64,000 nucleotides of DNA, taken from NCBI GenBank assembly GCA_037042185.1, contig JAXQJY010000024.1, forward strand, positions 868,001 to 932,000, in the 5' to 3' direction. The number at the start of each line of letters is the position of its first letter. Within the stretch, counting starts at the first letter, position 1. This document shows positions 51 to 47,797 of the stretch, piece after piece. The translations under genes were made by a program, and so were the position numbers. Origin of the DNA: Sordariomycetes sp. S80-01Y. Lineage: Eukaryota > Ascomycota > Sordariomycetes. The notes beneath the pieces are model-generated. The model had not been told where the DNA came from. It did not search any database and saw nothing but the letters and a program-made list of their open reading frames with translations.

Positions 51-3000
51 TCAAGACGACACTTCCGCACTGCTTCCTACGCTTGAGCTTCCCACTCCGC
101 CCGCAGTAGCCAACGAGCTTTGATCGGTACGACCAGCAACCTCAACGCTGGCGCTCTTGCTCCTTCCCCTCGCACTCGTCCCGGCAGCAGCTTCAGCGCT
201 GCTCTGTCTCCTGTTGCCCACCAGCAACACGGGGCGTTCCTCGTCGACGTACATGCCATTTGTGTCAGGCTCATCGTCGGGATCCTCGCCATCCTCATCC
301 CCGCTCGTCAAATCAACTCCGTCGGGATATCCGTCGCTGCGCTGTCCGTCGGCGCGCCTCGAGGATGTCTGATCGGACTCCAGTTCATCATCACCCTCGG
401 ACCCCAACAAGTCCTCATCTGACGAGGAGCCGTCGGAAGAGAAGGGGGGGTAGAAGATGGCTGGCGGGGGGAGGCGGACAGGGGCGAGACGCTTGATGCG
501 CCCGGAAGAATATTCGATCTCCAAGCCGGGAGAGGGGCCTCGGGAGGAGGCGGTGCTGTTGAGCGGGCTAGGAGATGAGGTTGTCATGGAGGCGAGACGG
601 GAGATGATGTTGTCGGTCGTGACCTCGGGCCCCAATTTTTGAGGAGCGCCACTCATCTCTGCCTTGGGTCGCTTCGTGGTCACTACAACCATGAAATGAT
701 CCTCCGGCATCACGCCACCCAACCCGCAAGGCTCGAGCGGGTGCACTTCAATGTACTGCTGTTCATCGGACCAGGCCATATCGAGATCAACATCGTCATC
801 TGACTCGTTCCCGGAGTCGGCGGACAGACCGGGTGGTTCAGTGTCCAGGTCCATCTTTGAGCTCGGCTTAGGGAAGGGGTGCTTCTGGGCCAGAGGCCTG
901 TAACTAAGCGATGAACCCGAGGGAGTGCGCAGGGCGCTCGGGCGAGCGAACTCGCGCTCTTGATCCTGGCCAGAAGACATCATGTATGTCATTGGCGAAG
1001 TGTCGCCGGGGTCGCCGGACAGGTCGGTGCAGAACGGGGCACCGCTGTAGTATATGATGGCGCCATCACGGCGGCGCTTCTTGCGGCCAGAAGTGTTGCC
1101 CGACCCAGAGTTGCCCCATTTTGAATCGTCGACGTTGCTGTCTTCAACAGGGCCGAAAGAGGAAAGGGTCTCGTCCATGGAAGTCTGCTCGTAGGAAGAT
1201 CCCTGGTGCACAAATAAGGGCTTGTAGTGGAAACTCTCCGATGATCCGGTGGTGCCATACCCGAGTTTCGATGCATTTTTGCCCATGCTGCCGGAGTACC
1301 CCTCGTCACCAGTCGAGTGACCCGTTTTCTGACGCTTACTAGACGCACCCTTGTTGGAACCATCTGTGTCGTCAAGTTCGGGGCTGGTGTGCTGTGCGTT
1401 GTCGCCAGAGCTATCACTGCTGAATCTCGTGCCCTCGGTTCCACCACGCCAGCGGATCTTGCGTCCGTCGGGCGAAAGTTGGAACTTGGTACTCATTCCA
1501 GACACGGCCGCACGAACAAAGTCGGGTGTGACGTTGATCATGTGCAGTTGTGCCAAGTTGCAAAGCAAGTTGAGGTAGACCCAACCGTCAGCGTCGGGGT
1601 GAACATCCTCAGTGGGTTGGTTGAGGAGCTCAGGAGGTACAAGACCGAGATGCTTAATGTATTCCATGTTCTCGGCTGGTACCTGCGCGCGGTCGGGGTC
1701 GAGGTCCTTGAGTCGAGTAGGTCGCTGCTCAGGGAGCGTAGGATCTGGCGGCGAGGTGTTGGCGCCACTGTGATTGCCACCGTGGGTGCCGCCGGACTCA
1801 GTCTGATCACCGCCAGAGTTGGAGGCGGAGCCGTTGTCGCGAGAACGGCTCTTCTTTCCTGACTGCTGCTCAGGGGGTAGAATGCGGGCCTCGCGGGCAG
1901 GCTCTCCGTCGCCGGTTGTAGTTGTGCCTCGCGTCTCCAAAGTGGGTGGTTGATGAACAAGGGGGTGCGTCTGCTTAGCCTGTCCCTCCCCCACGACGGC
2001 TGCCAGAGGAGCAGCATTGCCACTCTGTGGCTGCTTTGGCTGCGGCTTGCGAAGACCTCGTCCGGTAATTTTGCCGGTGAAAAGCTGCTCAAGACGCTTG
2101 ACGATCATCTTTTTCTTGTCCTTGTCTGTCATCAGGACATGTCGTGGGTAGAGACCCTCAGGAATGTCCCGCAGATAACTCTCCACCTTTTGCTCCGAGG
2201 ACTTGGCCCTGGAGCTCATGGAGGGCTTGCTTAGGGATGCACCGGATGAGTGCGCACCAGTCGACATGGAAGCATACGCCGAATCAGCCGGGCGCGTGTT
2301 CGAACCAGAACTCGAACTCGCATGTTTCGACATGGACCCAGAGTTTGAGTACATGCGGTCCCGCGTGTTTCCCTTACTCGAAACAGGATTCTTTCTACTT
2401 CCGCTCATCCCGGTTGGTGAGCTACCCAGCCCCGAAGCGAAGTCCCGTAGTGTTGACTCGAGCTCGCGCTTCTTGCGCTTAGGCAGGCTGTGGATCTTGA
2501 TCTCGAACAGCTTGTCCTTCCGCAACATGTCGGGGCCTTTTTGCTTATGGCGCTTGAGCTCGTCCTTCAATTTCTGAATTTCCACCGTGAGATCATCAAT
2601 CACAGAGCGATATTCATCTGCTGAGGATGATTGAGCTGTGTTAAGTTTCGGAGGAGCTGGCATCCGATCGTGATAGTAGGACTTGCCACCTTCGTTGGAT
2701 GAGTCGGTTTCTTTTTGGAAGAAAGGGGGATCGACTGTCACGAATCAGTCAAATGCTCACGCACGGTAGTCATCTCCGTCGCTTACCATCCATCGTATGG
2801 TTGTCAAAAGTAGCAGTCGGGTTCTGGTTGCTCTGGTCAAACCACCTATTCGGATCGCTCTGGCCGGTGTCGTGGCTTTCACCGCTCGAGTTCCGCCTCG
2901 GCGACGACGTCGCATTCGAGTTTATCCTGGACGCTTTGGACACCTTGGATGACGAGTCTCGCGCGAGCCGATGATGTCGCAATGTTACCGAATGCTCGGG

Positions 3001-23387: not shown

Positions 23388-25179
23388 TATGATAATGAGG
23401 ACGAAGAAAACGGAATAGAGCTGATGAATGACAGGAATTCAATTCTGAGAGAGGTCAACGACGAAATTTGTAGGCAATACATGCCCTTTTGTATGTAATT
23501 CGGTCCTTGAACTGTCAGTGCACCCGATGTTCGTCCGTATACCGGGTCGTCGTATGGCGGAGTCCGCAAGTCCGCACCCGCCCCTAGTGACGACAAACAG
23601 CTGATCTACTACAATCCAGATTTACGAGGACTGCATAATGTAGCGATCTACGTGCCGGCGTATTCCCGTGGAGGGCCGTAGAGGACGAAGTTGCGAGAGC
23701 CGACGAATCGGACGCTTGCGACCCCAACTGAAGCTGGTGGAGCCTCACGGGACCTAGGCCACGTTCTGCAATTTTACGGCCCTTGCACCGGCGAGTGGCA
23801 GGACTCTTGATTCAGGAGCATGAAAAGGCATAGGTAAGCGGCCATTTATGACGCCAAAGCATCGGCTTCGGTGCGTCTGCGGGCTCCGAACATCTTGAGC
23901 GCGGCGCTAGGGCGCCGCTGAGTAGCCCAACGAGAACGGCTCTGGCTGTCGCTTCCAGAAGAACGCGGTGGAAGCATTGACGAAGGCGTAGCTCTTTGGT
24001 TCAAAAAATGTACATCAACTCATTCGGCCGATCTGTAGCATGTCCCGATGAGCTACAGACTTCAATCACGGAAGTAGCTTATCGATACTGGCGTGCCTCC
24101 ACGTCCAAATCTGGAGGAACACGAAATTTCCTGAAGCAGTAGAAAAGGTATCTCATATTCCCATACTTCCGGCATGTGGTTCTAACGAGTCACTGTTGCT
24201 CAAAGAACAGCTGCTTTACGCCTTTCCTGTTGTTCGTGTTGGGCATTCACTACCACATATTTGGTAGTCAGAGCTGCATGGTCTATTTTCTATGTGCTCC
24301 ATTCTTGATAGAAGTCTGAAAAGGCCGATCGATTTCTCAATAATCACGTTTGACAATGCAATCTCCTGGTGTGCGGACATATAAGCCCCGGAAAAGCTAC
24401 TGTATCAGACCACTATTCGTAAGCTTCTCAGGCGATAGAGAAAAGTGATTTTGCACACTGGTTTGGATTGGGAGCCGAATTATGTCGACGGTGCCGGGTC
24501 TGGCATCCTGACGTTAGCGATCAACGGGCATGAATTACCTATGAGAGCTTGCGGGAAAATGACTTGACAGCTGCAACCGCGAGCCTTACACGCGTCACCC
24601 CATTTTTGGCCAGGTGACCAGAGAAGCACATCATGCAACCAGCCACAGTTGATAAGGCTGACCTGTAGGCGCACCGAACCGTGGACGGATGGCCTCCCTT
24701 CGCTGGAAGCCACACCAACCTACGAGCAATGCAGGAGAAAAGAAAAGGAACTGCGCTTATCGAGGAGATTCTATACTTGACAATTTCTGTGCAACTTGTA
24801 ATGCTTTTACCACAACAGAGACCAGCCTTCTATCGCGGCGCTGGCACCGCGTGTGGCGATTGTAATTGGGCAGAGTTGGCGGCTAGCCCTCCTTCCCACC
24901 CCCGGCTTTTAAGATGCATGTTGGTGGTGGCTGCGCAGAGCAGCGTGCAGTGGTCAGATTCTTGCTCCCAGCCTGATCTCAATTCTTCCTCCTTCATCAT
25001 CTTACCTACGTACTGCAAGGCCCCAGACAAACTGAAACGTCCAGCCTTTGAGCCAGCAATGGTCACGTCGATTGGGACGACCTGTGTGCACCCCACTGCC
25101 AACCCATCTATCACACGATCAGGCTGCGGAGAGGTCTCGAATGTCGCCTTGCGCCTAGTGCCCGAGCCCACCAGCAGAC
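23388..25179. other. Gene-free stretch between the reductase and the NLR gene
   Basis: About 1.8 kb with neither a domain-like frame nor recognisable repeats. It is more AT-rich in its centre than neighbouring genes. The last 250 nt are the likely NLR promoter; pyrimidine-rich CCTTCCCACCCC near 24890 is the most distinctive part. Confidence 0.5.
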
Positions 25180-28100
25180 ATGGACCTCGGGACAACGTCT
25201 GACGCCGACAGCGACGTCTCTCATCGTCCTTCAAAGCGGAAGAAGACCGAAAACGGAAGCGTGAAGAGGGTCTTGGCCCACGATCGCTATAATGTAGCCT
25301 GGATCTGTGCGCTGCATGTTGAGATGGCTGCAGCTATGGCCATGTTGGATGAGATCCATGGCGAGCTACCGAGACGCGGGAACGACAACAACGCCTACGT
25401 GCTAGGGAGCATTGGAAACCACAACATCGTCGTCGCATGTTTGCCACTGGCCCAATACGGAAATACCAACTCTGCACATGTGGTGACGAGCCTCATGCAC
25501 ACATTCACCTCCATCCGTCGAGGCTTGATGGTCGGAATTGGCGGCGGAGCTCCCCTTGAAGTAGACGTCCGCTTAGGGGATGTCGTTGTTGGCACGAGAG
25601 TCATGCAGTCCGATTTTGGCAAGATTGTAGCCGGTGGAGAAGTACAGCGGACATCAGTCCCCAAGCTGCCAGACTATTCCCTCCGTACTGCCGTCACCAA
25701 CCTGCGAGCCGTGCACGAGCTCCAGTCTAGTCGGATCCCGGCTATTCTCCAAGAGAGACTTGCCGGGAACGAGGAATATGGTCGTCCTAGCACGCCTGAC
25801 CGTCTGTTTCACTCGAGCTATCCGCACCAAGCGCCGGTGCTGGACTGCTCAGATTGCGACCCCCTGCATCTGATAGAGCGGAAAACGAGAAGATCCCGGG
25901 ATCCGATGATTCATTATGGCGCCATTGCCTCGGGGAACCAAGTCGTCAAGGATGCTTTGACGCGCGATAGGATCGCCCGGGAACTAGACGCCGTGTGTTT
26001 CGAGATGGAGGCTGCGGGACTAATGGATGTTCTGCCATGCCTTTCGATTAGAGGCATTTGCGACTATGCAGATTCTCACAAAGCCAAAGAATGGCAAAGG
26101 TATGCGGCAGCAGTAGCCGCCGCCTACGCCAGGGAGTTTTTGGAGAAGCTCGCCGCCCAAGACAACTCAACGAGAAACATCCTTGACTCTGATGTGCTCG
26201 TTACTCGCACCTCTAGTAATTCAAACAACGATCTGATTCGCGCCAACCCTGCAACGCAGGATGGCCAAATCAATCGTCGAGAGCAACTGTTGAATTCCTT
26301 GAAATTCGACCAAATCGACTCGCGCAAGACTGATATCAAAGCTGCGTATTCGAAGACATGCCAATGGTTTCTGAAACATCCCGACTACCTCGAGTGGCTT
26401 GACCTCGAGAAGCAAGCACATCACCACGGATTCTTGTGGATCAGAGGCAAGCCGGGGGCCGGTAAATCCATCATTATGAAGTTCATATACAGGAGATTGA
26501 AAAACAAGGATCGGTCAAATCGCGTTCTCACGTCATCCTTCTTCTTCAATGCAAGAGGCGACTGCCTTGAGAAGTCGGTCTCCGGGATGTACCGGTCGTT
26601 GTTGTTGCAGCTTTTGGAGGGGTTCCCCGACCTTCAACAGGTCTTGGATGACCCTGAGCTGGTACCTCGAAATCAGGCAGGGTGTCCATCCGTGAACGTA
26701 CTCAAAGAACTGTTTCGGAGCGCAGTGCTGCTTCTTAGAGATCGCTCCTTCACTTGCTTTGTCGACGCGCTTGATGAGTGCGACGAGCAGCAGGCGAAGG
26801 ACATGGTCGAGTTCTTCGAAGAGATAGCAGAATTGTGCACAGAGCAAAAGCTTCGGTTGCGGATTTGCTTCTCAAGTCGCCACTACCCTTACATCGATAT
26901 CCAGTACGGGATTCGGCAAATTTTGGAAGACCAGCCTGGCCACGCTGAGGACTTGAGCTGTTACATCGAAAAACACCTGAAGATTCGGCATCCTCCACTG
27001 CTCCAGGAGCTCAGACTAGGGGTGCTTGAAAAGGCCAAAGGTGTTTTCCTCTGGGTTGCCCTGGTGGTGGATGTTCTCAACAAGGAAAACAACCGCGGTC
27101 GACTGGCTCTACGAAAGCGACTTAAAGAGGTGCCGAGCGGGCTAAGCGAGCTTTTCAAGAATATCTTGACGCGCGATCAGGAGAATATGGGAGAGCTACT
27201 TCTATCCATTTTGTGGATCCTCTTTGCACAACGACCTCTAAAGCCACAGGAATACTACCATGCTCTGTGGTTCGGCCTGTCCCTGGATGAAGAGGATCTG
27301 AATGATATCGAAGCACCAGAGGTCGGCATGTCGGATGCGAAGGATTGCTTCCACAAGTGCGTGGTCAGCTCCTCGAAGGGGCTTGCTGAAATCACTAAAG
27401 CCAAGCAACCAACAGTGCAGTTCATACACGAGTCTGTGCGCGATTTCCTCATCAGGGACAAAGGCATTCTAGCGCTGTGGCCAGAGCTCGGAGCCGACTG
27501 GGAGAGCCGCAGCCATGAAACACTCAAATCCTTATGCCATGCGTACATCCAACTTCGACAAGTTCAGAAGTTGGTCACTGTTCAACAACCGGACGAGACA
27601 TCGCGCCTCCAGGGCTATCTCGGGTCGAAATATGCATCACAGCTGGAACAGAAATACCCTTTCACAGAGTACGCCGTTGAGTCTGTGCTCTACCATGCGG
27701 ATTCTGCCGCCGAAGCGATTGTCCAGGAAAACTTTCTCGCTCAGTTTTCCGTCCCTGCTTGGACGCGCATATACAACATCTATGAGAAACATACAGTTCG
27801 CAAGTATGGAGAGCTGGATGACATACTCTACGTGCTCGCAGACAGAGGACTCACTAGACTTATCCAGGCGAGGCTCAGAACAAACCCCAGCACTGAAGTC
27901 CGAGGAAGCAGATACGAACATCCTCTCAAGGCTGCAATGGCCCAAGGTCACAAGGAGAGCGTTGTGGTCCTTTTGGGGTTGACTTCGCGGGTTCATAACG
28001 GAGTTGACATTACGGAAAGCCTGAAATCCGATATAGACTCATGTCGGAAAAATCAAACACCTCTTTCTTGGGCTTGCGAGCATGGCCATCTTGGGATAGC

Positions 28101-28911
28101 CAAGATTCTGGTCGGAAAGGGAGCTTCGACACAAGAGGTGGATTTGTTTCGAACTGTGAAGAATGGCCATTCTGAAGTTGTCGAGTGGCTGATTAATAAC
28201 GGGAGGGACGTCGAGGCTACGAACAGAAAAAACGAAACGCTGTTAGTAATTGCCGTTTCTAACGGAAGAGACACCTTGACGCAGATGCTGCTCGATCAAG
28301 GGGCTAATATCGAGTCGAGGGATAATATCGGCCGGACGCCGCTATCGTGGGCTTCAACGACTAGCAATTCCTCCGTGGTACAGCTCCTACTCAATCAAGG
28401 GGCTAATATCGAGTCGAGGGATATCATCGGCCGGACGCCGCTATATTGGGCTTTAAAATATAGTAACTCCTCCGTGTTACAGCTCCTGCTCGATCAAGGG
28501 GCTAATATCGAGTCGAGGGATAATAACGGCCAGACGCCGCTATCGTGGGCTTCAGATGATAGCAGTTCCTCCATGGTACAGCTCCTACTTAATCAAGGGG
28601 CTAATATCGAGTCGAGGGATAATATCGGCCGGACGCCGCTATCGTGGGCTTTAGATAATAGCAGTTCCTCCGTGGTACAGCTCCTACTTAATCAAGGGGC
28701 TAATGTCGAGTCGAGGGATAATATCGGCCGGACGCCGCTATCGTGGGCTTCAAGGACTAGAAATTCTTCCGCGGTACAGCTCCTACTCAATCAAGGGGCT
28801 AATGTCGAGTCGAGGGATAATAACGGCCAGACGCCGCTATCATGGGCTTGGATAAACGAGGACTACACCGTATCGCAGCTTTTGCGCGAGAAGGGGGCGG
28901 CTGTTGCGTGA
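25180..28911 (+). CDS. PNP-NACHT-ankyrin NOD-like receptor (fungal NLR), 1243 aa, single exon
   Basis: Three-part fungal NLR. Residues about 33-325 form a nucleoside-phosphorylase-like sensor/effector domain (RYNVAWICALHVEMAAAMAM, VGIGGGAP, RLGDVVVGT, AVCFEMEAAGLMD). Residues about 370-700 form a NACHT NTPase with Walker A GKPGAGKS at about 424-431 and Walker B FVDALDECDE near 527; a helical region follows. The C-terminal third is ankyrin repeats ending in six nearly identical 33-residue units. Fungal NLRs of this plan are thought to trigger heterokaryon-incompatibility or immune-like cell death after recognition by the repeat domain (family knowledge). The PNP-like domain may bind or cleave a nucleoside or nucleotide. 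All key NTPase motifs look intact and the frame is uninterrupted, so the gene appears functional. Confidence 0.94.
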   Translation: MDLGTTSDADSDVSHRPSKRKKTENGSVKRVLAHDRYNVAWICALHVEMAAAMAMLDEIHGELPRRGNDNNAYVLGSIGNHNIVVACLPLAQYGNTNSAHVVTSLMHTFTSIRRGLMVGIGGGAPLEVDVRLGDVVVGTRVMQSDFGKIVAGGEVQRTSVPKLPDYSLRTAVTNLRAVHELQSSRIPAILQERLAGNEEYGRPSTPDRLFHSSYPHQAPVLDCSDCDPLHLIERKTRRSRDPMIHYGAIASGNQVVKDALTRDRIARELDAVCFEMEAAGLMDVLPCLSIRGICDYADSHKAKEWQRYAAAVAAAYAREFLEKLAAQDNSTRNILDSDVLVTRTSSNSNNDLIRANPATQDGQINRREQLLNSLKFDQIDSRKTDIKAAYSKTCQWFLKHPDYLEWLDLEKQAHHHGFLWIRGKPGAGKSIIMKFIYRRLKNKDRSNRVLTSSFFFNARGDCLEKSVSGMYRSLLLQLLEGFPDLQQVLDDPELVPRNQAGCPSVNVLKELFRSAVLLLRDRSFTCFVDALDECDEQQAKDMVEFFEEIAELCTEQKLRLRICFSSRHYPYIDIQYGIRQILEDQPGHAEDLSCYIEKHLKIRHPPLLQELRLGVLEKAKGVFLWVALVVDVLNKENNRGRLALRKRLKEVPSGLSELFKNILTRDQENMGELLLSILWILFAQRPLKPQEYYHALWFGLSLDEEDLNDIEAPEVGMSDAKDCFHKCVVSSSKGLAEITKAKQPTVQFIHESVRDFLIRDKGILALWPELGADWESRSHETLKSLCHAYIQLRQVQKLVTVQQPDETSRLQGYLGSKYASQLEQKYPFTEYAVESVLYHADSAAEAIVQENFLAQFSVPAWTRIYNIYEKHTVRKYGELDDILYVLADRGLTRLIQARLRTNPSTEVRGSRYEHPLKAAMAQGHKESVVVLLGLTSRVHNGVDITESLKSDIDSCRKNQTPLSWACEHGHLGIAKILVGKGASTQEVDLFRTVKNGHSEVVEWLINNGRDVEATNRKNETLLVIAVSNGRDTLTQMLLDQGANIESRDNIGRTPLSWASTTSNSSVVQLLLNQGANIESRDIIGRTPLYWALKYSNSSVLQLLLDQGANIESRDNNGQTPLSWASDDSSSSMVQLLLNQGANIESRDNIGRTPLSWALDNSSSSVVQLLLNQGANVESRDNIGRTPLSWASRTRNSSAVQLLLNQGANVESRDNNGQTPLSWAWINEDYTVSQLLREKGAAVA
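28321..28911 (+). repeat. Tandem 99-bp ankyrin-encoding repeats, five full units plus a diverged last unit
   Basis: Units begin at 28321, 28420, 28519, 28618, 28717 and 28816, each encoding D(N/I)(I/N)G(R/Q)TPLxWA...QLLLxQGAN(I/V)ESR. Stretches such as CAAGGGGCTAAT and GAGTCGAGGGAT are unchanged between units. Most differences cluster in about 10 codons after TPLSWA. This is the pattern of recent duplication with variation at the exposed loop positions. Confidence 0.95.
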
Positions 28912-40045: not shown

Positions 40046-42611
40046 ATGGACGTCCCGCAATGGCCCTCGAGCGACACCCCGCAGGCGGGACAGCAGTGGT
40101 TGGACGCCTCGTCCTCGTCCACCTCATTCCAGACACCGAAAAAGCTGCACATGCAAAGCCAGCGCGACCCGTGGCTCCAGTGGATGGGGCCCCTCGATGG
40201 CAGCTTTACATTCTCCTCCGTCCCTATTGAGGAGGAGCCTGAGCTCGTGCACAACGGCCACCCCATCGAAGGGTTCAGCAGCATCGACACGCGCCTCGCG
40301 CAGTTTGACGGCGACAAGCCGCAGTTTGGTGGCGAGGACAGGAAACTGCCCAAGGTGGGATTCGGGCCGCGCTCGAGGCCGCTGAGCATGATCTCGCTGG
40401 CCAGTGCCACGAGCAGCGGTTCCTGTCTTTCGTCTGTCCAGACTGATGTAAGCGATGCGAACACCGTCATTGGTATGTCCAGGGAGGCAAGTCCGCAGAA
40501 GGCCTTTGCTGTTCCGACGCCGCAAGCCTATCCGGAGCATGGATGCAACTGGGGTGGCTGCGCGGCTGTATTCAAGACGCACACTGCCCTGAGCTGGCAT
40601 GTTAAGGCCGAGCACCTCCTCATTTGCCCGGCTGCCGGGTGTGATGAGGGGCCCTTCTCGAGCGCGAAGCTCGTCGGTGCACATGTCGATGTGGTGCACC
40701 TGAAGAAGGAGAGGAGTGTCAAGGAGTGGTCCCTCGAGGTGGGCCAGAAGACTGTGAACCATGATGCCGAGGAGGTCGTTGTGAGTCGCGAGAAATGCAG
40801 GGAGAGGACGCCGGTCCAGATGGGAAGTGTCATCGAGGCCAAGAAGCGCAAGTGCATGGATGATCTCGACAAAGCTGTCGAGCGAAGAGCGAAAAGGGCG
40901 AAGAAGTTGACCGGTGAGCAACCCCCTGATGTCAACATCGTCGGCCGTGCGCTAATGAAGCTAAGGCTCAACTCCAACCTCCAACACGTCAAAGCCACTG
41001 GCCGAAGCGCCCAGCTTCCCCATGGTTTGGGAGCACTCGGTCCTCCCGTTCCTCACAACCCTCATACCAAAGCTCTCATCTCCTCGCCACATTATCAGCA
41101 CCACACGGGGGCGGACGCCAGCCCATCGCAGGATCAACATCATCACCCCCATGGCCCTCTCCTTCTCAAAGAAGCTCATCGTCGGAAAACACGTGCGTGA
41201 CCTGCTGCCGCCGCCATACAAGGAGAAGACCTCTTTCGTCTTCTCAGTTGGCCAGATCGAGCGAACAACGTGGGCGAGAGGCCTGGGCAAGGGAATACCG
41301 GACGATGTCTGCTCGCCCCGCAATCCGTACAGCTTCACCACGCCGGCCATGGGCGACAGCATCGGGATCCATGCGGGAGAGAACTTTGACGAGAGCACCG
41401 CCACGCTCGGGCCCTGCATCACCGTCGATGGCGGGAGCTACTGGCTCGGCAACTTCCATCCTTTCCTCGACGCCTACGAGTCTTTGGACACGGTGGCTGT
41501 AGAGCACCCTTCTCCGCAAGATCGAACGCGCTGCACGGAGCAGGACCATGATGCCATGACTTCCGGATCGGACTTCAAACTCGGCGACTTGATGGTCACG
41601 TCGGGCCTCAACCTCAAGACCACGCGTGTCTCCCATGATCCCTACTGGGAGGATCTCGGCAAGGACCCGCCCCTTGTCGTCACGGACTGGGCTCTGATAT
41701 CGTCGGCTTCCTCCCGCGCCAACATCCTGCGTCGCTTCCCCTCAGACACGCAAGCCCTTGGCAAAGAGCCTCTCATAATATCCACTTCGGCCGTCGAGCC
41801 CGGCGCTCCTGTTCTCTCCTCGGGTCGGACATCTGGCTACCAGAAGGGCCAGGTCTGCGAGATCCCCGCCTACGTCTCTGGCGAGGAGAACGGGACCCAG
41901 AAGGCGACGCGCGAGTGGTTCATCGAGGATCCCTTGGACAACGAAGAGGCCTGGATCCGGGGCGGGATCGGCGTCGAGGGGGACAGCGGCGCACCTGTCG
42001 TGGACGCCGAAACGAACGACCTGGTCGGCCAGGTTTGGGGGAGGAACAAGTACTGGGGTCCTGGACCGAGACATACCTTCTTCACACCCATCGCCGACAT
42101 CTTCGACGACATACAGGAGAAATGCGGTCAGGACGCTCGTCCGAGCCTGCCTCAGCACAGGGATGAGGCGGACCGCTTCCCCGTGTATCCGAGCTGCCGT
42201 CAGTGTTACGATCTAAAGACGTATCTCGACAGCAGACGCTCGTCGCGCATGTCGCTGCAGAGCATGATCATGAGTCCCGAGGAAAGGGTGAATGGGGATC
42301 TGACATCCATTGAGGCTGTTTCTGAGCTAGCTACACCGCGGGACTCGGGCTACAATTCGCTCCCGAGGGGCGTGGGCATAGGCGTTGAAGAGGCCGGGAG
42401 CAGCTTCAACATCGCTTCGGCCTTTAGTCCGGGCGTCCTGAGCACATCGGCTTTCAACGACGTGAAGAGTCCGTACGCGCAGACCTTGGACTTGTCCGAT
42501 CTGCCACAGGCTGGTGTCGAGGACTGCAAGAAGAGAGCTGCGCCGGACGGGCTCGATGTCTTGAAGCAGACGGGTGCGTATCGGGTGAAGAGATCGCGGG
42601 TTGAGGAGTAG
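40046..42611 (+). CDS. C2H2 zinc-finger protein fused to a trypsin-like (S1-type) domain, 837 aa, one intron
   Basis: Exons are 40046..40913 and 40966..42611. The 52-nt intron (GTGAGC, GCTAATG branch, CTAAG) is phase 1 and joins KKLTG|STPTSN; without it the two halves are in different frames. Residues about 163-215 hold two C2H2 fingers (CNWGGC...HVKAEH and CPAAGC...HVDVVH). After a basic, nuclear-signal-like region (KKRKCMDDL, ERRAKRAKK), the second half looks like a chymotrypsin-fold domain. A candidate His is in YWLGNFHPF, a candidate Asp in FKLGDLMVTSG, and the nucleophile Ser in GVEGDSGAPVVD near residue 630. The triad therefore seems complete. The tail is Ser-rich and ends in basic KRSRVEE. 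Function unknown; proteolysis is inference. Confidence 0.8.
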
Positions 42612-42618
42612 AGCTCGC

Positions 42619-44616
42619 TCAGCCGGGGAATCCTCCACGCGCCATCTTCCTGGCCCGCCCCTCTCGTCGATTGTGGTTTGCCCGCGAGCCCTTGTTGGCT
42701 TCCTTGTGCTTTCTGGCGTTCTCGGTGCCCTTCTCGCCCGTCTGTCCGGCGACGTCTCCTCTCCCTCGCCCGCGACCACCTCCTCCACGCCCCCTGCCGC
42801 GACCTCTACCCCCTCGGGACGACCCTCCAGCGGCATCACTGTCTTCCTGTCCAGAGCCAGCGGGACTGGCTCTCCAACTCGTGCGTTCAATCTGCGCTTG
42901 CTCACCACTGAATGCGTACCTCGCGTCCAGCCTCCTCTTCAGTGCCGGTGTCCTCGCGAGCATAACCGCCCATCCTTCAATGGTCTCGTCCGTCATCCCC
43001 GTCTCCTCTCTCAGTTTGGCCCGCCCAGGTCCGCGCCTAGTTGCAGCATCCCGCGCGAACACCTTCTCGTCCATCTGGTACGCCCTGAACAGGACTTCCT
43101 CGTTGCCGTTGCTGACCCCGTCAGCTTCCTGGTTCGAGGAGTCGACCGTGCCGCCGACGTCAGCCGCATCGTAAGTGTCGTCGCGCTCGTCGTCGTCAGA
43201 GTCAAATGCTGCGAGGGCGGACATGATCGCCGACTTGCTCGGGGCTGTGGAGTTGAGGGCGTTGGCGGTCTTGTCCTTGTTGCGACCGAAGGAGATCTTG
43301 GAGACGTCGTGGGATAGTCGATCAAATTCGTCGTCGTCGTGAATGTTCTTCCTTGTTGGGAGTTGGGGGGGTGTGGAACGTGGCGCCAGGTCTTTGTGTT
43401 TTTGGGTTGGCGATGATGATCTAATCACGTTAGTTATACGCACGTTGAACGTCAATACATGAACATACAATGCTTCGCTCCGATCTGCCGTGGCGAGATG
43501 AGGCGGTAACGACTCTCCAAGCAGATTCGCAACGACCTGCTCAACGTCGTCCTGGTACTCATCCAGGCACTTAGACACGAAGCCAGCGCCAAGATCGGGA
43601 AACAGATCTTGAATCTGGGTGATCTGGCTCATCTTGTGCACATGCATCTCGACATCCACCTCGTCCGCCGTTTGCCTCCCCTTGCCTTTATCCACCTTCC
43701 TCTTGATTAGCCGCTTTGGCTTGACCATCGGGCCCTTCTTAAACTCTTGTAGAGCCGATATTCTCTTCTTGAAATTCTCACTCGCAGCATCCGTCGCCTC
43801 TGCTCTCCGCAGCAACGTCTTCAGTATCGGCGTCGACGTGACTAGCTCTGCCACCAGCGAATCATTGACGTTCAGCGGCCCAACCTTGTGCGCATCCGCA
43901 GCCGTCTTGAGCGCGTAGAGCTGATCATTCAGCATCGCCCACTTCGGCGGCTCGGCCTCCGTGAGCCCAATAAGACATAGATACATCGTCGAGATGATGG
44001 CTTTTCGCAGTGGCGGGTTCATGACCTTGAAGCACATAACCAAGGCGTCGAAGAAATCCGAGCCGGCGAGGAAGAGGGTGCACGCTTGGGGCGAGGCGTG
44101 GAGGAGCGGGTTGAGACGCGCGAGCTTGGCCTCGACTAGGTTGAGATCTCCCTTTATTCCGGCGTCCATCTGAGGGATGAGGAGTTTCTTGACTGAGGTG
44201 AGAGACCCCTCGATGGGCGTGGGTTGGGTGTTGAAGACTGCTGACAGGAGGGGTGTGGTGAGTTTCTTTGGGTAGATTCTCGTGAGACTTGAGAGGAAGT
44301 CAAAGTTGAGAAGTGAGGATGGTGGTGATAGAGTCAGGACTCTGTTTGTGAGCTGAAATGCCGACTTCAGGAGTGCTGATGAGTTTGGTCCAAGAGGCGC
44401 TATCCCTGACTCTGCCGTCTCCTCCATGAACGAGCTCAAAAACACCGTCAGAGACTCGTCTTCTGCCACCTTCTTCTTGAAATCCTTCTCCTCCAAACTG
44501 ACGCAAGCTTGTGAGAGAAGCAGCCATGCCTCCAGCAGCGAGTCCCAGTCTGACGCGCTGAGGTGACCCCTCCATGACGCTTTCGGGAAGGGCGCAAAGG
44601 GTGGTAGTGAAGCCAT
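42619..44616 (-). CDS. cue3: CUE-domain protein Cue3/ASCC2, RQT-complex subunit, 649 aa, one intron
   Basis: Cue3 (Rqt3; ASCC2 in animals) is a ubiquitin-binding subunit of the complex that splits ribosomes stalled by collisions. The N-terminal 300 residues are the helical ASCC2-like domain (WRGHLSASDWDSLLEAWL, FFDALVMCFK). The CUE domain lies at about 335-380 (MSQITQIQDLFPDLGAGFV, EQVVANLLGE). The C-terminus is a long RG-rich stretch (GGRGRGRGRGGGGRGRGRG) followed by a basic tail, suited to RNA or ribosome contact. A 48-nt intron at 43421..43468 (GTATGT, AACTAAC, TTAG) is a multiple of three and would otherwise be read through as 16 odd residues. It is tail-to-tail with the C2H2-protease gene, only 7 nt between stops, and divergent from rps20. 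Confidence 0.88.
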   Translation of the reverse strand: MASLPPFAPFPKASWRGHLSASDWDSLLEAWLLLSQACVSLEEKDFKKKVAEDESLTVFLSSFMEETAESGIAPLGPNSSALLKSAFQLTNRVLTLSPPSSLLNFDFLSSLTRIYPKKLTTPLLSAVFNTQPTPIEGSLTSVKKLLIPQMDAGIKGDLNLVEAKLARLNPLLHASPQACTLFLAGSDFFDALVMCFKVMNPPLRKAIISTMYLCLIGLTEAEPPKWAMLNDQLYALKTAADAHKVGPLNVNDSLVAELVTSTPILKTLLRRAEATDAASENFKKRISALQEFKKGPMVKPKRLIKRKVDKGKGRQTADEVDVEMHVHKMSQITQIQDLFPDLGAGFVSKCLDEYQDDVEQVVANLLGESLPPHLATADRSEALYVHVLTFNVRITNVIRSSSPTQKHKDLAPRSTPPQLPTRKNIHDDDEFDRLSHDVSKISFGRNKDKTANALNSTAPSKSAIMSALAAFDSDDDERDDTYDAADVGGTVDSSNQEADGVSNGNEEVLFRAYQMDEKVFARDAATRRGPGRAKLREETGMTDETIEGWAVMLARTPALKRRLDARYAFSGEQAQIERTSWRASPAGSGQEDSDAAGGSSRGGRGRGRGRGGGGRGRGRGDVAGQTGEKGTENARKHKEANKGSRANHNRREGRARKMARGGFPG

Positions 44617-45052
44617 GTCGGACGATGCTTTAAGGTGTCGCCTTTTCAGCTCTTTGAGTCTTTATAACAACAGGAAAGAAGTCTTAAGCCTCGCGGGCCA
44701 TGCTGGTGCTTTTGTTTACTCGCCCGCCCTCATCGCCGAATGAATCATCGTGAGCACTCGCCGCAGCCGCAGGCCCGCAGCATTGAAGTCAGTCGGTACG
44801 TACCGTCCCAGCGCCCCCCGCATCTCCGCCAATGACAGGCAAGCCCTGCTCGTCAGGCTGACGCTTATCTTATCCGGGTCTAGCGCGCACACATCTCGCA
44901 TCTTTTCCAACCCCACCAAAAATTCCACGATTCTTGCGACCGCCTCTATTCTTGATTTCTCTTCCCAACAACCAGAACGCACCGCCCCTCTTCATCACTT
45001 TGCCGCAACGCCAGTTCGAGTCGTGAAGAGACTTGTCCCAACATTCGACAAA
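44617..45052. promoter_or_regulatory. Shared divergent promoter, cue3 and rps20
   Basis: 436 nt between start codons. The rps20 side has a pyrimidine-rich stretch (CCCCTCTTCATCAC) just upstream, normal for ribosomal protein genes. No TATA box seen. Confidence 0.6.
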
Positions 45053-45490
45053 ATGTCTTCCTACAACAAGCCTGAGAAGGACCAGGGTGGCGAGGCTCCC
45101 GTACGTGTCCCCCTCGTCGCTGTGCTCGCAAAGCCATGCGGCGCCAGGCCTGCTTGAAGCTCAATGCTAATGCCCGGACAGAAGAGCCACAAGATCCGCA
45201 TCACCCTCTCCTCCCGCAAGGTCCAGACCCTCGAGAAGGTCTGCTCCGAGATCATCGACCGCTCCAAGAGCAAGGACCTGCGCTTCAAGGGCCCCGTCCG
45301 CCTGCCCACCAAGACCCTCAAGATCACCACCCGCAAGACCCCTTGCGGTGAGGGTTCCAAGACCTGGGACTGCTACGAGATGCGCATCCACAAGCGCCTC
45401 ATCGACTTGACCGCCCCCACCGAGGTCGTCAAGCAGATCATTGTCAACATCGACGCCGGTGTTGAGGTCGAGGTCACCATTGCTGCTTAA
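45053..45490 (+). CDS. rps20: 40S ribosomal protein S20 (uS10), 118 aa, one intron
   Basis: Small-subunit protein of the head, next to the site where collided ribosomes touch. Exon 1 is 45053..45100 (16 codons) and exon 2 is 45182..45490; the 81-nt intron (GTACGT...GCTAAT...ACAG) is phase 0. Typical uS10 sequence: [39 protein letters not shown], then [18 protein letters not shown] and VEVEVTIAA at the end. An intron near the start codon is common in fungal ribosomal protein genes. The flexible N-terminal tail has lysines at 6 and 9, comparable to the lysines (6 and 8) ubiquitinated on yeast uS10 during ribosome quality control. Confidence 0.97.
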
Positions 45491-45680: not shown

Positions 45681-47797
45681 TTAGAAATTCCATAATGTAC
45701 AGTCCCTCGGCGGCGGCAACTCAGGCATCAAGCCGTCAACGAATTCCCCCGTCTGCGCAAATTTCTCCCACCGCTCCTTCGATTCCTGGTCATAATCCTC
45801 CACGGGCAAGGACGTATCCTTGTTGTATGCTGGAGGCCCGTTTGGGAACCATATCCGCTGCCACGTACCGTCAAATTGCTGGATGCCCGGCAGTCCGTCC
45901 TTGTAAGCAACCTGTTTATCGCGGAACGAGGCAAGCCTGCCGTCCATGCCCTTTGATGCATACGATGAGACAGGGGGGTGTTTCCTCGTGCTGTCAGGAG
46001 GATAGGGGTTGTTCTCCCCATCTGCCTGCGCGGCATTCGCTGCGCCGGGTGCGCTGGCGAAGGCATTGTTTTGGGCTGCCTGTTGTCCAAAGCCGCCACT
46101 GGGCTGTCCTGGTGGTTTCGACGCGAAAGGATTGGCAGCATTTTGAGAGTTGTTCGTGGATGCGAAGGGATTGGGTTTCGCCCCGGGTTGACTTGGCTGG
46201 CCAAAAGTCGACGTCTGCCCGGCTGGTTGAGATGGCTGACCAAAGGGATTTGGTTTCGACTGCTCCTGGTTGCTGCCGCCAGAACCAAATGGGTTAGGTT
46301 TCGACTGCTCCTGGCTGTTGCCCGCGGAACCAAATGGGTTTGGTTTCGCGTTGTTCTGCGCTGTCTGACCAAAAGGACTCGGGGCGTTGTTGCTACCATT
46401 GTTTGCGGCACTCGCGAATGGACTCGCGTTGCTATTGTTGCTGTTTGCTGCTGAGGCAAAGGGGCTTGCGTTATTGTTCGTGCTGCCGGCATTTGATCCG
46501 AAGGGATTCGGCTTTGCGCCCAATTGGCTTGGTTGGCCAAAGGCAGAGGTCTGCGGTCCAGGTTGTGATGGCTTCCCGAAAGCTGAGCCGCCGCCACCTA
46601 ATTGTGAAGGCTGGCCAAAAGCTGATCCTCCTGTGTTTCCTGGCTGCGAGGGCTGGCCAAACGCAGAGCCACCCGTGTTCCCTGGCTGTGATGGCTGGCC
46701 AAACGCAGAACCACCCGTGTTGCCTGGTTGAGAAGGCTGGCCAAACGTTGAGCCTTGGCTCTGCGAGGGCTGGCCAAAGGGGTTCGGCTTTGCTCCTAAC
46801 TGAGTTGGCTGCCCAAAAGCGGAAGTGCTCCCAGGTGCCGATGGTTGCCCAAACGCAGAGCCTGTGTTGCCTGGCTGGGAGGGCTGTCCGAAAGTCGACC
46901 CTTGGGTCTGTGATGACGCGCCAAAGGGGTTGGGCTTTGCGCCTAGTTGACTAGGCTGACCAAATGCAGAACCTCCGCCTCCTAGTTGGCTGGGCTGCCC
47001 GAACGCCGACCCCTGCGTCTGTCCGCTCGGTTGGCCAAAGGGGCTTGGTTTTGCGCCCAGTTGACTCGGCTGTCCGAAAGCACTCGGGGTCTGCTGCGCT
47101 CCTCCGCCGAACGGGTTGCTCGTGCCCGCAGCACTCCCGCCTCCGAATGGGTTGCCCGCGGCTCCCGTCTGCCTCTTCCCAACCTCAAACACCCCAAACG
47201 GCGCTCCCTGGGTGCCCTGCTCGCATATGTCGTGTCGATTCGGATGCTGATTCTCCTGGCCCACGATAAACTCAATAGCACCCCGCAGGTCCTTGACCGC
47301 ATTCTGCATCTGTGACTGGGCGTTGGCGTACAGGTCCTGCGCTTCCTTGATAGCCTGCTGCTCCGTGCCAGCCGCAACGCCGGCGATGTGGTGAAGCCGC
47401 ATCTCCTCAAAGCTCTGCTCCCTCGGGTATCCACCAAACAGCTGCCCTGGTGCGTCTCGGCCGGGGGCGTATGCGCTGAGGATCCATGTCGGCGGGTCGG
47501 AAACCAGGTCTGTCTCGATGCCTTCAGGTGTGATTCTGTACTTTTCTGGGGGGCTGTCAGCTGGATGCTCTTGCTGAGAACGGAATAGAAGAGGGGGGGT
47601 AGGTACCTGCTCCCTGGGGCTGAGCTCTGCTTCCGCCCGAGGAGTTGTTGGCGAGGGCGCCGAAGCGGGAGCCGCCGCCAGTGCTGTGTTCGAAGCGGCA
47701 GTTGTCTGGAAAGTCAGTTACGGCGGGCGCAATTTGGGGGGATGTACGTACTTCCGAACTTGCAATTGCCCTGCTGGTAGAACTTGCAGAGCGTCAT
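45681..47797 (-). CDS. nup42: FG nucleoporin with CCCH zinc finger (Nup42/Amo1), 669 aa, two introns
   Basis: Cytoplasmic-face nucleoporin that helps Gle1/Dbp5 in mRNA export. Exons: 47797..47752, 47705..47607, 47545..45681, with in-phase joins. The N-terminus MTLCKFYQQGNCKFGNNCRF is a C-x7-C-x5-C-x3-H finger split by intron 1. A conserved block (GIETDLVSDPPTWILSAYAP, LFGGYPREQSFEEMRL) and a helical segment precede about 340 residues of FG repeats (AFGQPSQ, NPFG). The C-terminus carries the Gle1-binding-like segment (FRDKQVAYKDGLPGIQQFDG, WFPNGPPAYNKD) and ends DCTLWNF. Order and length fit fungal Amo1/Nup42. Confidence 0.9.
46140..47160 (-). repeat. FG-repeat coding region with tandem near-identical DNA units
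   Basis: Roughly 25-40-nt modules encoding (S/T)AFGQPSQ(L/P)G(A/N) and KPNPFG recur more than a dozen times. Three adjacent units encoding GNTGGSAFGQPSQP at about 46625-46735 are almost identical in DNA. Suits slippage and unequal exchange; boundaries are approximate. Confidence 0.8.

Follow-up and report, generated by a model that had tools for sequence, protein, structure and literature searches.

Yeast Cue3, of which human ASCC2 is presumably the counterpart, belongs to the RQT system, as do Slh1 and Rqt4. The N-terminal helical part of Cue3 and ASCC2 binds Slh1 and ASCC3, respectively. By the naming convention for S. cerevisiae loci, we take YGL110C and YHL015W to lie on chromosomes VII and VIII. 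These loci are CUE3 (PMC5386856) and RPS20 (PMC1557866), respectively, and the two genes are thus apart in S. cerevisiae, since their locus names place them on different chromosomes. Their products are biochemically linked: yeast uS10 accepts ubiquitin at K6 or K8, and K63 chains are bound by Cue3 and Rqt4 (PMC12583759).

Divergent gene pairs with a ribosomal-protein (RP) partner are known from a gene-order study of 64 species, which describes S16/L13, L21/S9, L11/SmB and L28e/UPF0357 among the conserved fungal pairs; short gaps are typical of them (PMC2871058). Fungal bidirectional promoters, such as those of histone pairs, sor1/sor2 and the penicillin genes, likewise serve divergent genes across a short gap, and sor1/sor2 was assayed with reporters in both directions (PMC9604776).

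The cue3-rps20 locus

A pair of similar geometry lies in the window, that is, the whole 64-kb stretch of DNA analysed here (C7:868001-932000 in a 30.87-Mb assembly of 16 contigs). The genes cue3 (minus strand) and rps20 (plus strand) are arranged head-to-head, with 436 nt, thus less than 1 kb, from ATG to ATG. Unlike sor1/sor2, this gap is known from its sequence alone; unlike CUE3 and RPS20 of S. cerevisiae, the two genes are adjacent. The features of the locus are as follows.

42619..44616, minus strand: cue3/ASCC2-like gene (open frame 44616..42619, 665 codons; Pfam and PDB matches)
43421..43468, minus strand: probable in-frame cue3 intron of 48 nt (GTATGT donor, CTAAC branch, TAG acceptor; predicted from splice signals)
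43513..43632, minus strand: CUE (ubiquitin-binding) domain, residues 329-368 (coordinates computed from residue numbers)
44617..45052, no strand: gap between the start codons of cue3 and rps20 (436 bp, 54.6% GC)
44911..44924, plus strand: CCCCACCAAAAATT, a run of words common to other RP upstream regions (word comparison)
45053..45100, plus strand: rps20 (uS10) exon 1, a 16-residue tail with Lys6 and Lys9 (ATG at 45053)
45101..45181, plus strand: rps20 intron of 81 nt, phase 0 (full-length alignment of the spliced protein with PDB chain 7r81_V2)
45182..45490, plus strand: rps20 (uS10) exon 2 including the stop codon (Pfam, NCBIfam, PDB)

The identities that the initial annotation had given to both genes are established by profile and PDB matches to CUE/ASCC2 and uS10/RPS20. 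Its divergent orientation and 436-nt distance agree with the frames and exons, and the tail lysines 6 and 9 that it had pointed out are found in the translated exon 1.

Within the cue3 frame, the CUE domain (PF02845) scores 38.4 bits against a cut-off of 21.1 (Pfam), and the human ASCC2 CUE domain 2di0 is the sole PDB match of the product at E up to 0.1 (E 1.1e-9). In this likeness to ASCC2 the protein resembles the Cue3 and ASCC2 of the known systems. At E up to 0.05, the genome has five places with a CUE match. Residues 384-399 of the cue3 frame probably represent a 48-nt intron, whose removal would yield a protein of 649 aa. Compared with the PDB at E up to 10, the N-terminal part gave three unrelated matches, with no ASCC2 chain among them; a solved ASCC2 N-terminus presumably exists among the known structures. 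Residues 1-372, predicted without an alignment, came out all-helical with a mean pLDDT of 44.7, and the model was set aside. Searches with Cue3 for fungal contamination returned 12 pattern matches and no relatives in a prokaryote contig collection; the same query found no pattern match in a viral contig collection.

The rps20 product matches Ribosomal_S10 (Pfam, PF00338) and, as cytosolic uS10, the NCBIfam profile uS10_euk_arch (128.7 bits, cut-off 96.25). Its closest PDB chains are 7olc_SU and 7r81_V2, which we take to be from Chaetomium thermophilum and Neurospora crassa, and the alignment with 7r81_V2 spans residues 1-118. Exon 1 encodes exactly the N-terminal 16-residue tail with its two lysines; those of the 7r81 chain lie at the same positions, 6 and 9, and those of the 7olc chain at chain positions 5 and 8, with the same spacing. 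A tail with two lysines is shared with yeast uS10, whose acceptors are however K6/K8, and ubiquitination of the protein described here is predicted only. The only other uS10-family match in the genome is a 222-aa frame at C12:2313082, taken for a putative mitochondrial member of the family. An in-frame ATG at 45164, within the rps20 intron, opens a 108-aa ORF that would give uS10 without Lys6 and Lys9, possibly by chance. An RNA motif in the 3'-UTR of rps20 has been described in budding yeasts (PMC5640933).

Several further genes were noted in the window; an Rfam scan of all 64 kb gave no match at gathering scores. On the cue3 side, two overlapping frames of 384 and 529 aa (40046-42611, plus strand) match no Pfam family above cut-off, and the second stops 7 bp short of the cue3 stop, so that the two are convergent and almost touching. 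On the other side, and convergent with rps20, lies an FG-repeat nucleoporin-like gene (45681-47402, minus strand) with many SAFGQPSQPG-type repeats; its PF13634 score of 29.7 bits is below the cut-off of 32.2. The clock gene frq (51-2741, minus strand; FRQ, 1306 bits), some 42 kb away from rps20, is apparently truncated where the window begins. POL2 (Pfam) is also present, as is an NLR-like protein with a phosphorylase domain, an NPHP3/NACHT-type NTPase and ankyrin repeats (25159-28908, plus strand). Together with the closest PDB chains of uS10, frq and POL2 suggest that the DNA comes from a filamentous ascomycete, probably a sordariomycete.

Other quality-control genes and divergent RP pairs

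As in yeast, homologues of Slh1 and Rqt4 accompany Cue3 in this genome. Rqt4 is encoded at C13:2448.6k (PF06221; best PDB match yeast RQT4) and Slh1 on C11 at about 922-925k (best PDB match SLH1, 1994 bits); a Slh1-like gene on C12 is presumably Brr2, judging by its N-terminus. A Hel2/ZNF598 candidate, with a match just at cut-off, lies at C15:493.6k, and the substrate genes eS7 and uS3 at C8:531k and C9:1016k. Among the 12 possible pairs of four ribosome quality-control (RQC) factors with three substrates, cue3/rps20 is the only adjacent one, Slh1, Rqt4, the Hel2 candidate, uS3 and eS7 all being located on other contigs.

Under random gene order, head-to-head adjacency would arise with a probability of about 5e-5 for one pair named in advance and about 6e-4 for the 12 pairs, assuming about 22 genes per 64 kb (our own ORF count) and hence, by extrapolation, about 10,600 genes. 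These odds overstate the surprise, because the pair was picked after the sequence had been read, when each of some 20 pairs of neighbours could have offered a relation of any kind.

Head-to-head RP genes also occur elsewhere in the genome. The genes for uL30 (RPL7) and uS11 (RPS14) diverge at about 692.1 kb on C12, with 308 bp between the starts, that of uL30 being deduced from a short first exon. On C10, at about 3077.5-3080.1 kb, uL4m (minus strand; probably mitochondrial by its leader) faces mL38/YmL35 (plus strand; PDB 6ywe). When the 5' neighbours of eight RP genes (seven cytosolic and uL4m) are compared, two face another RP gene, uS10 faces cue3 and uS3 faces a myotubularin-like gene; for eS4, eS7, eS8 and uL4 the nearest long upstream frame is on the strand of the RP gene and, in the case of eS7, eS8 and uL4, matches no Pfam family. 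Divergent pairs with related functions thus occur in this genome, and it is not unusual here for an RP gene to face a meaningful neighbour.

Retention of the pair in other fungi

In Aspergillus fumigatus, Afu2g02140 is a CUE-domain gene (PMC10512406) and Afu2g02150 is listed as 'Ribosomal protein S10', gene S10a, with the orthologues An07g06760 and AO090011000490 (PMC3569664, PMC4869263). Their locus tags are consecutive. SNPs in Afu2g02140 are reported at 534,384-536,173, a span of 1.8 kb, and a variant in the 5'-UTR of Afu2g02170 is given at 541,570 (PMC10512406); going by their numbers, Afu2g02150 and Afu2g02160 lie between these two genes.

The neighbourhood could still be a lineage-limited product of chance, in which case the A. 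fumigatus S10 would be eS10, or its CUE gene would not be Cue3. A 64-kb window with about 20 neighbour pairs offers a story in any of them, Afu2g02150 is named only S10 or S10a in these papers, S. cerevisiae is without the pair, and S20/CUE is absent from the 51 pairs in Table 1 of the 64-species study that contains the other conserved divergent pairs (PMC2871058). Against this, an A. flavus table gives 'S10b' (AFLA_034340), taken for eS10, as distinct from S20 (AFLA_043150) (PMC6468572), and the 1.8-kb SNP span within Afu2g02140 fits the size of Cue3. The eS10 gene of the present genome, at C13:1476.7k, is near none of the five CUE places; the closest one on C13 is about 1.06 Mb away. Chance of this kind is unlikely. 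Because S10b and S20 are separate in A. flavus and eS10 here is far from the CUE places, the Aspergillus neighbourhood is most simply the same pair. That Afu2g02140/Afu2g02150 correspond to cue3/rps20 is very likely, even though the name 'S10' is ambiguous and could mean eS10, and the tags alone are silent on strand.

Judging by these locus tags from the literature, the adjacency is probably old and not a local accident. The initial annotation had held that a pair confined to a few close relatives would be a matter of chance; the A. fumigatus tags probably speak against such confinement, and the separation of the genes in S. cerevisiae speaks for a limited range. A pair restricted to Pezizomycotina could have missed the cut of Table 1 in the 64-species study (PMC2871058). 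A published Cue3/RPS20 gene pairing was not found among open-licence PMC papers. The main text of a fission-yeast collinearity paper (PMC8537764) mentions neither ribosomal protein, divergent, rps20 nor ubiquitin. S20 of Knufia is CF317_001861, and the text that gives this tag does not name the genes adjacent to it by number. The loci adjoining AFLA_043150 in A. flavus did not turn up among open-licence PMC papers.

Sequence words in the gap

Measured from the rps20 ATG, the run CCCCACCAAAAATT begins 142 nt upstream, and its distance from the cue3 ATG is 295-308 nt; within the gap, CCCACCAA stands at -141 relative to rps20 and at -303 relative to cue3. Words were compared between the upstream regions (309-500 bp) of seven cytosolic RP genes (uS10, uS3, eS7, eS4, eS8, uS11 and uL4) and 59 control ORF upstream regions, drawn from the window and 20 other loci (21 stretches in all), with cue3 excluded. 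The start codons of the controls were guessed by frame, and some control frames overlap genes on the opposite strand. CCCCAC occurs in 7/7 RP regions and 16/59 controls, AAAATT in 6/7 and 6/59, and CCCACCAA in 4/7 and 3/59; because the seven scored regions had also served to select the words, and because of the control frames opposite other genes, the Fisher values are rough and optimistic. In eS10, the sole RP gene held out, CCCCAC and CCCACC are present and CCCACCAA and AAAATT absent. A GGATTAGGGC stretch is present in the uL30/uS11 gap. A repeat search of the 436-bp gap gave nothing telling, nor did a promoter scan, which is bacterial and inapplicable to fungi.

The presence of the words in the gap is established. 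Under functional coupling, a bidirectional promoter would tie Cue3 output to ribosome production, and RQT reader capacity would scale with the number of uS10-marked ribosomes. The biochemical link between the products and the probable retention as far as A. fumigatus favour such coupling, as does the tendency of conserved fungal divergent pairs towards related functions, which are enriched among them (PMC2871058). The words point the other way: upstream of rqt4 and of the slh1 frame (start by frame), only CCCCAC is found, without CCCACCAA or AAAATT. The scatter of Slh1, Rqt4, the Hel2 candidate, uS3 and eS7 over other contigs and the separate genes of S. cerevisiae also count against coupling, and we consider it rather improbable.

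Expression in Aspergillus

Published Aspergillus data add to these objections. For Afu2g02140, no significant up-regulation was reported under any of the conditions examined, which include iron depletion, oxidative stress and drug exposure, and its level was given as lower than that of Afu2g02220 (PMC10512406). The S10 gene showed ratios of 15.5, 20.0 and 12.7 between 1-h-grown and resting conidia in three species, 15.5 being the value for A. fumigatus, and appears in Table 4 of that paper among the common genes with a ratio >10 (PMC4869263). Afu2g02140 is unmentioned in the main text of PMC4869263, including this list. The biofilm paper lists S10 with 2.32 and 2.40 (PMC3569664), and its main text names no other AFUA_2G021xx gene, and so not Afu2g02140. 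S20 of A. flavus increases during germination (log2 2.87; PMC9412981). These lists are selected, so that the absence of the CUE gene from them is weak evidence; taken together, the scattered values lean against co-regulation of the pair.

The same data bear on an antagonistic form of coupling, in which the strong rps20 promoter would interfere or compete with cue3, and Cue3 would rise when RP transcription is switched off in stress. The short shared gap would suit it, and anti-regulated divergent pairs are mentioned in the 64-species study (PMC2871058). The A. fumigatus CUE gene was, however, not significantly up under the three stresses named above, and antagonism of this sort seems very improbable.

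Why the two genes are neighbours

We regard it as moderately probable that cue3 and rps20 are an old head-to-head pair, with two core promoters sharing a short gap, and that they stay together mainly because breakage would harm an essential gene. Each gene would have its own core promoter, at opposite ends of a gap that is probably nucleosome-poor. The RP words, about 140 bp from rps20, would be part of a strong rps20 promoter; cue3 would be transcribed at a low, housekeeping rate starting from the opposite end, with open chromatin perhaps of passive benefit to it. This arrangement would be retained in some filamentous ascomycetes mainly through the cost of a break in the promoter of an essential RP gene, and a need to make mark carrier and reader together would not be the cause of retention.

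Several observations from other fungi are consistent with such an old pair held by its promoters. In yeasts, whether gene order is retained is predicted best by gap length (PMC2258174), and co-expression of neighbours in yeast has no noticeable tie to shared transcription factors (PMC2045684). Given a mean fungal divergent gap of 1343 nt, a gap of 436 bp is short but ordinary, and Table 1 of the 64-species study includes RP genes whose neighbours have no obvious function in common with them, for example L28e/UPF0357 (PMC2871058).

The initial annotation had suggested that a shared promoter could couple the supply of mark carrier and reader. Coupled supply is not supported by the adjacency of the genes: words of the RP type are nearer to rps20 than to cue3, S. 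cerevisiae does not have the pair, the other located RQC factors adjoin no substrate gene, and the A. fumigatus CUE gene was not significantly up under the conditions examined, while S10 has a ratio of 15.5 between 1-h-grown and resting conidia. Moreover, one uS10 is produced for each ribosome whereas RQT factors are rare, a stoichiometry that disfavours simple supply matching. It is quite improbable that filamentous ascomycetes have a conserved bidirectional promoter by which Cue3 is scaled to uS10 production, and thus a cis-encoded mark-and-reader pair. If such coupling were true, gene order would report the matching of quality-control capacity to ribosome number. If the genes are uncoupled, the locus would be a clear example of tightly linked products whose genes are neighbours through promoter geometry.
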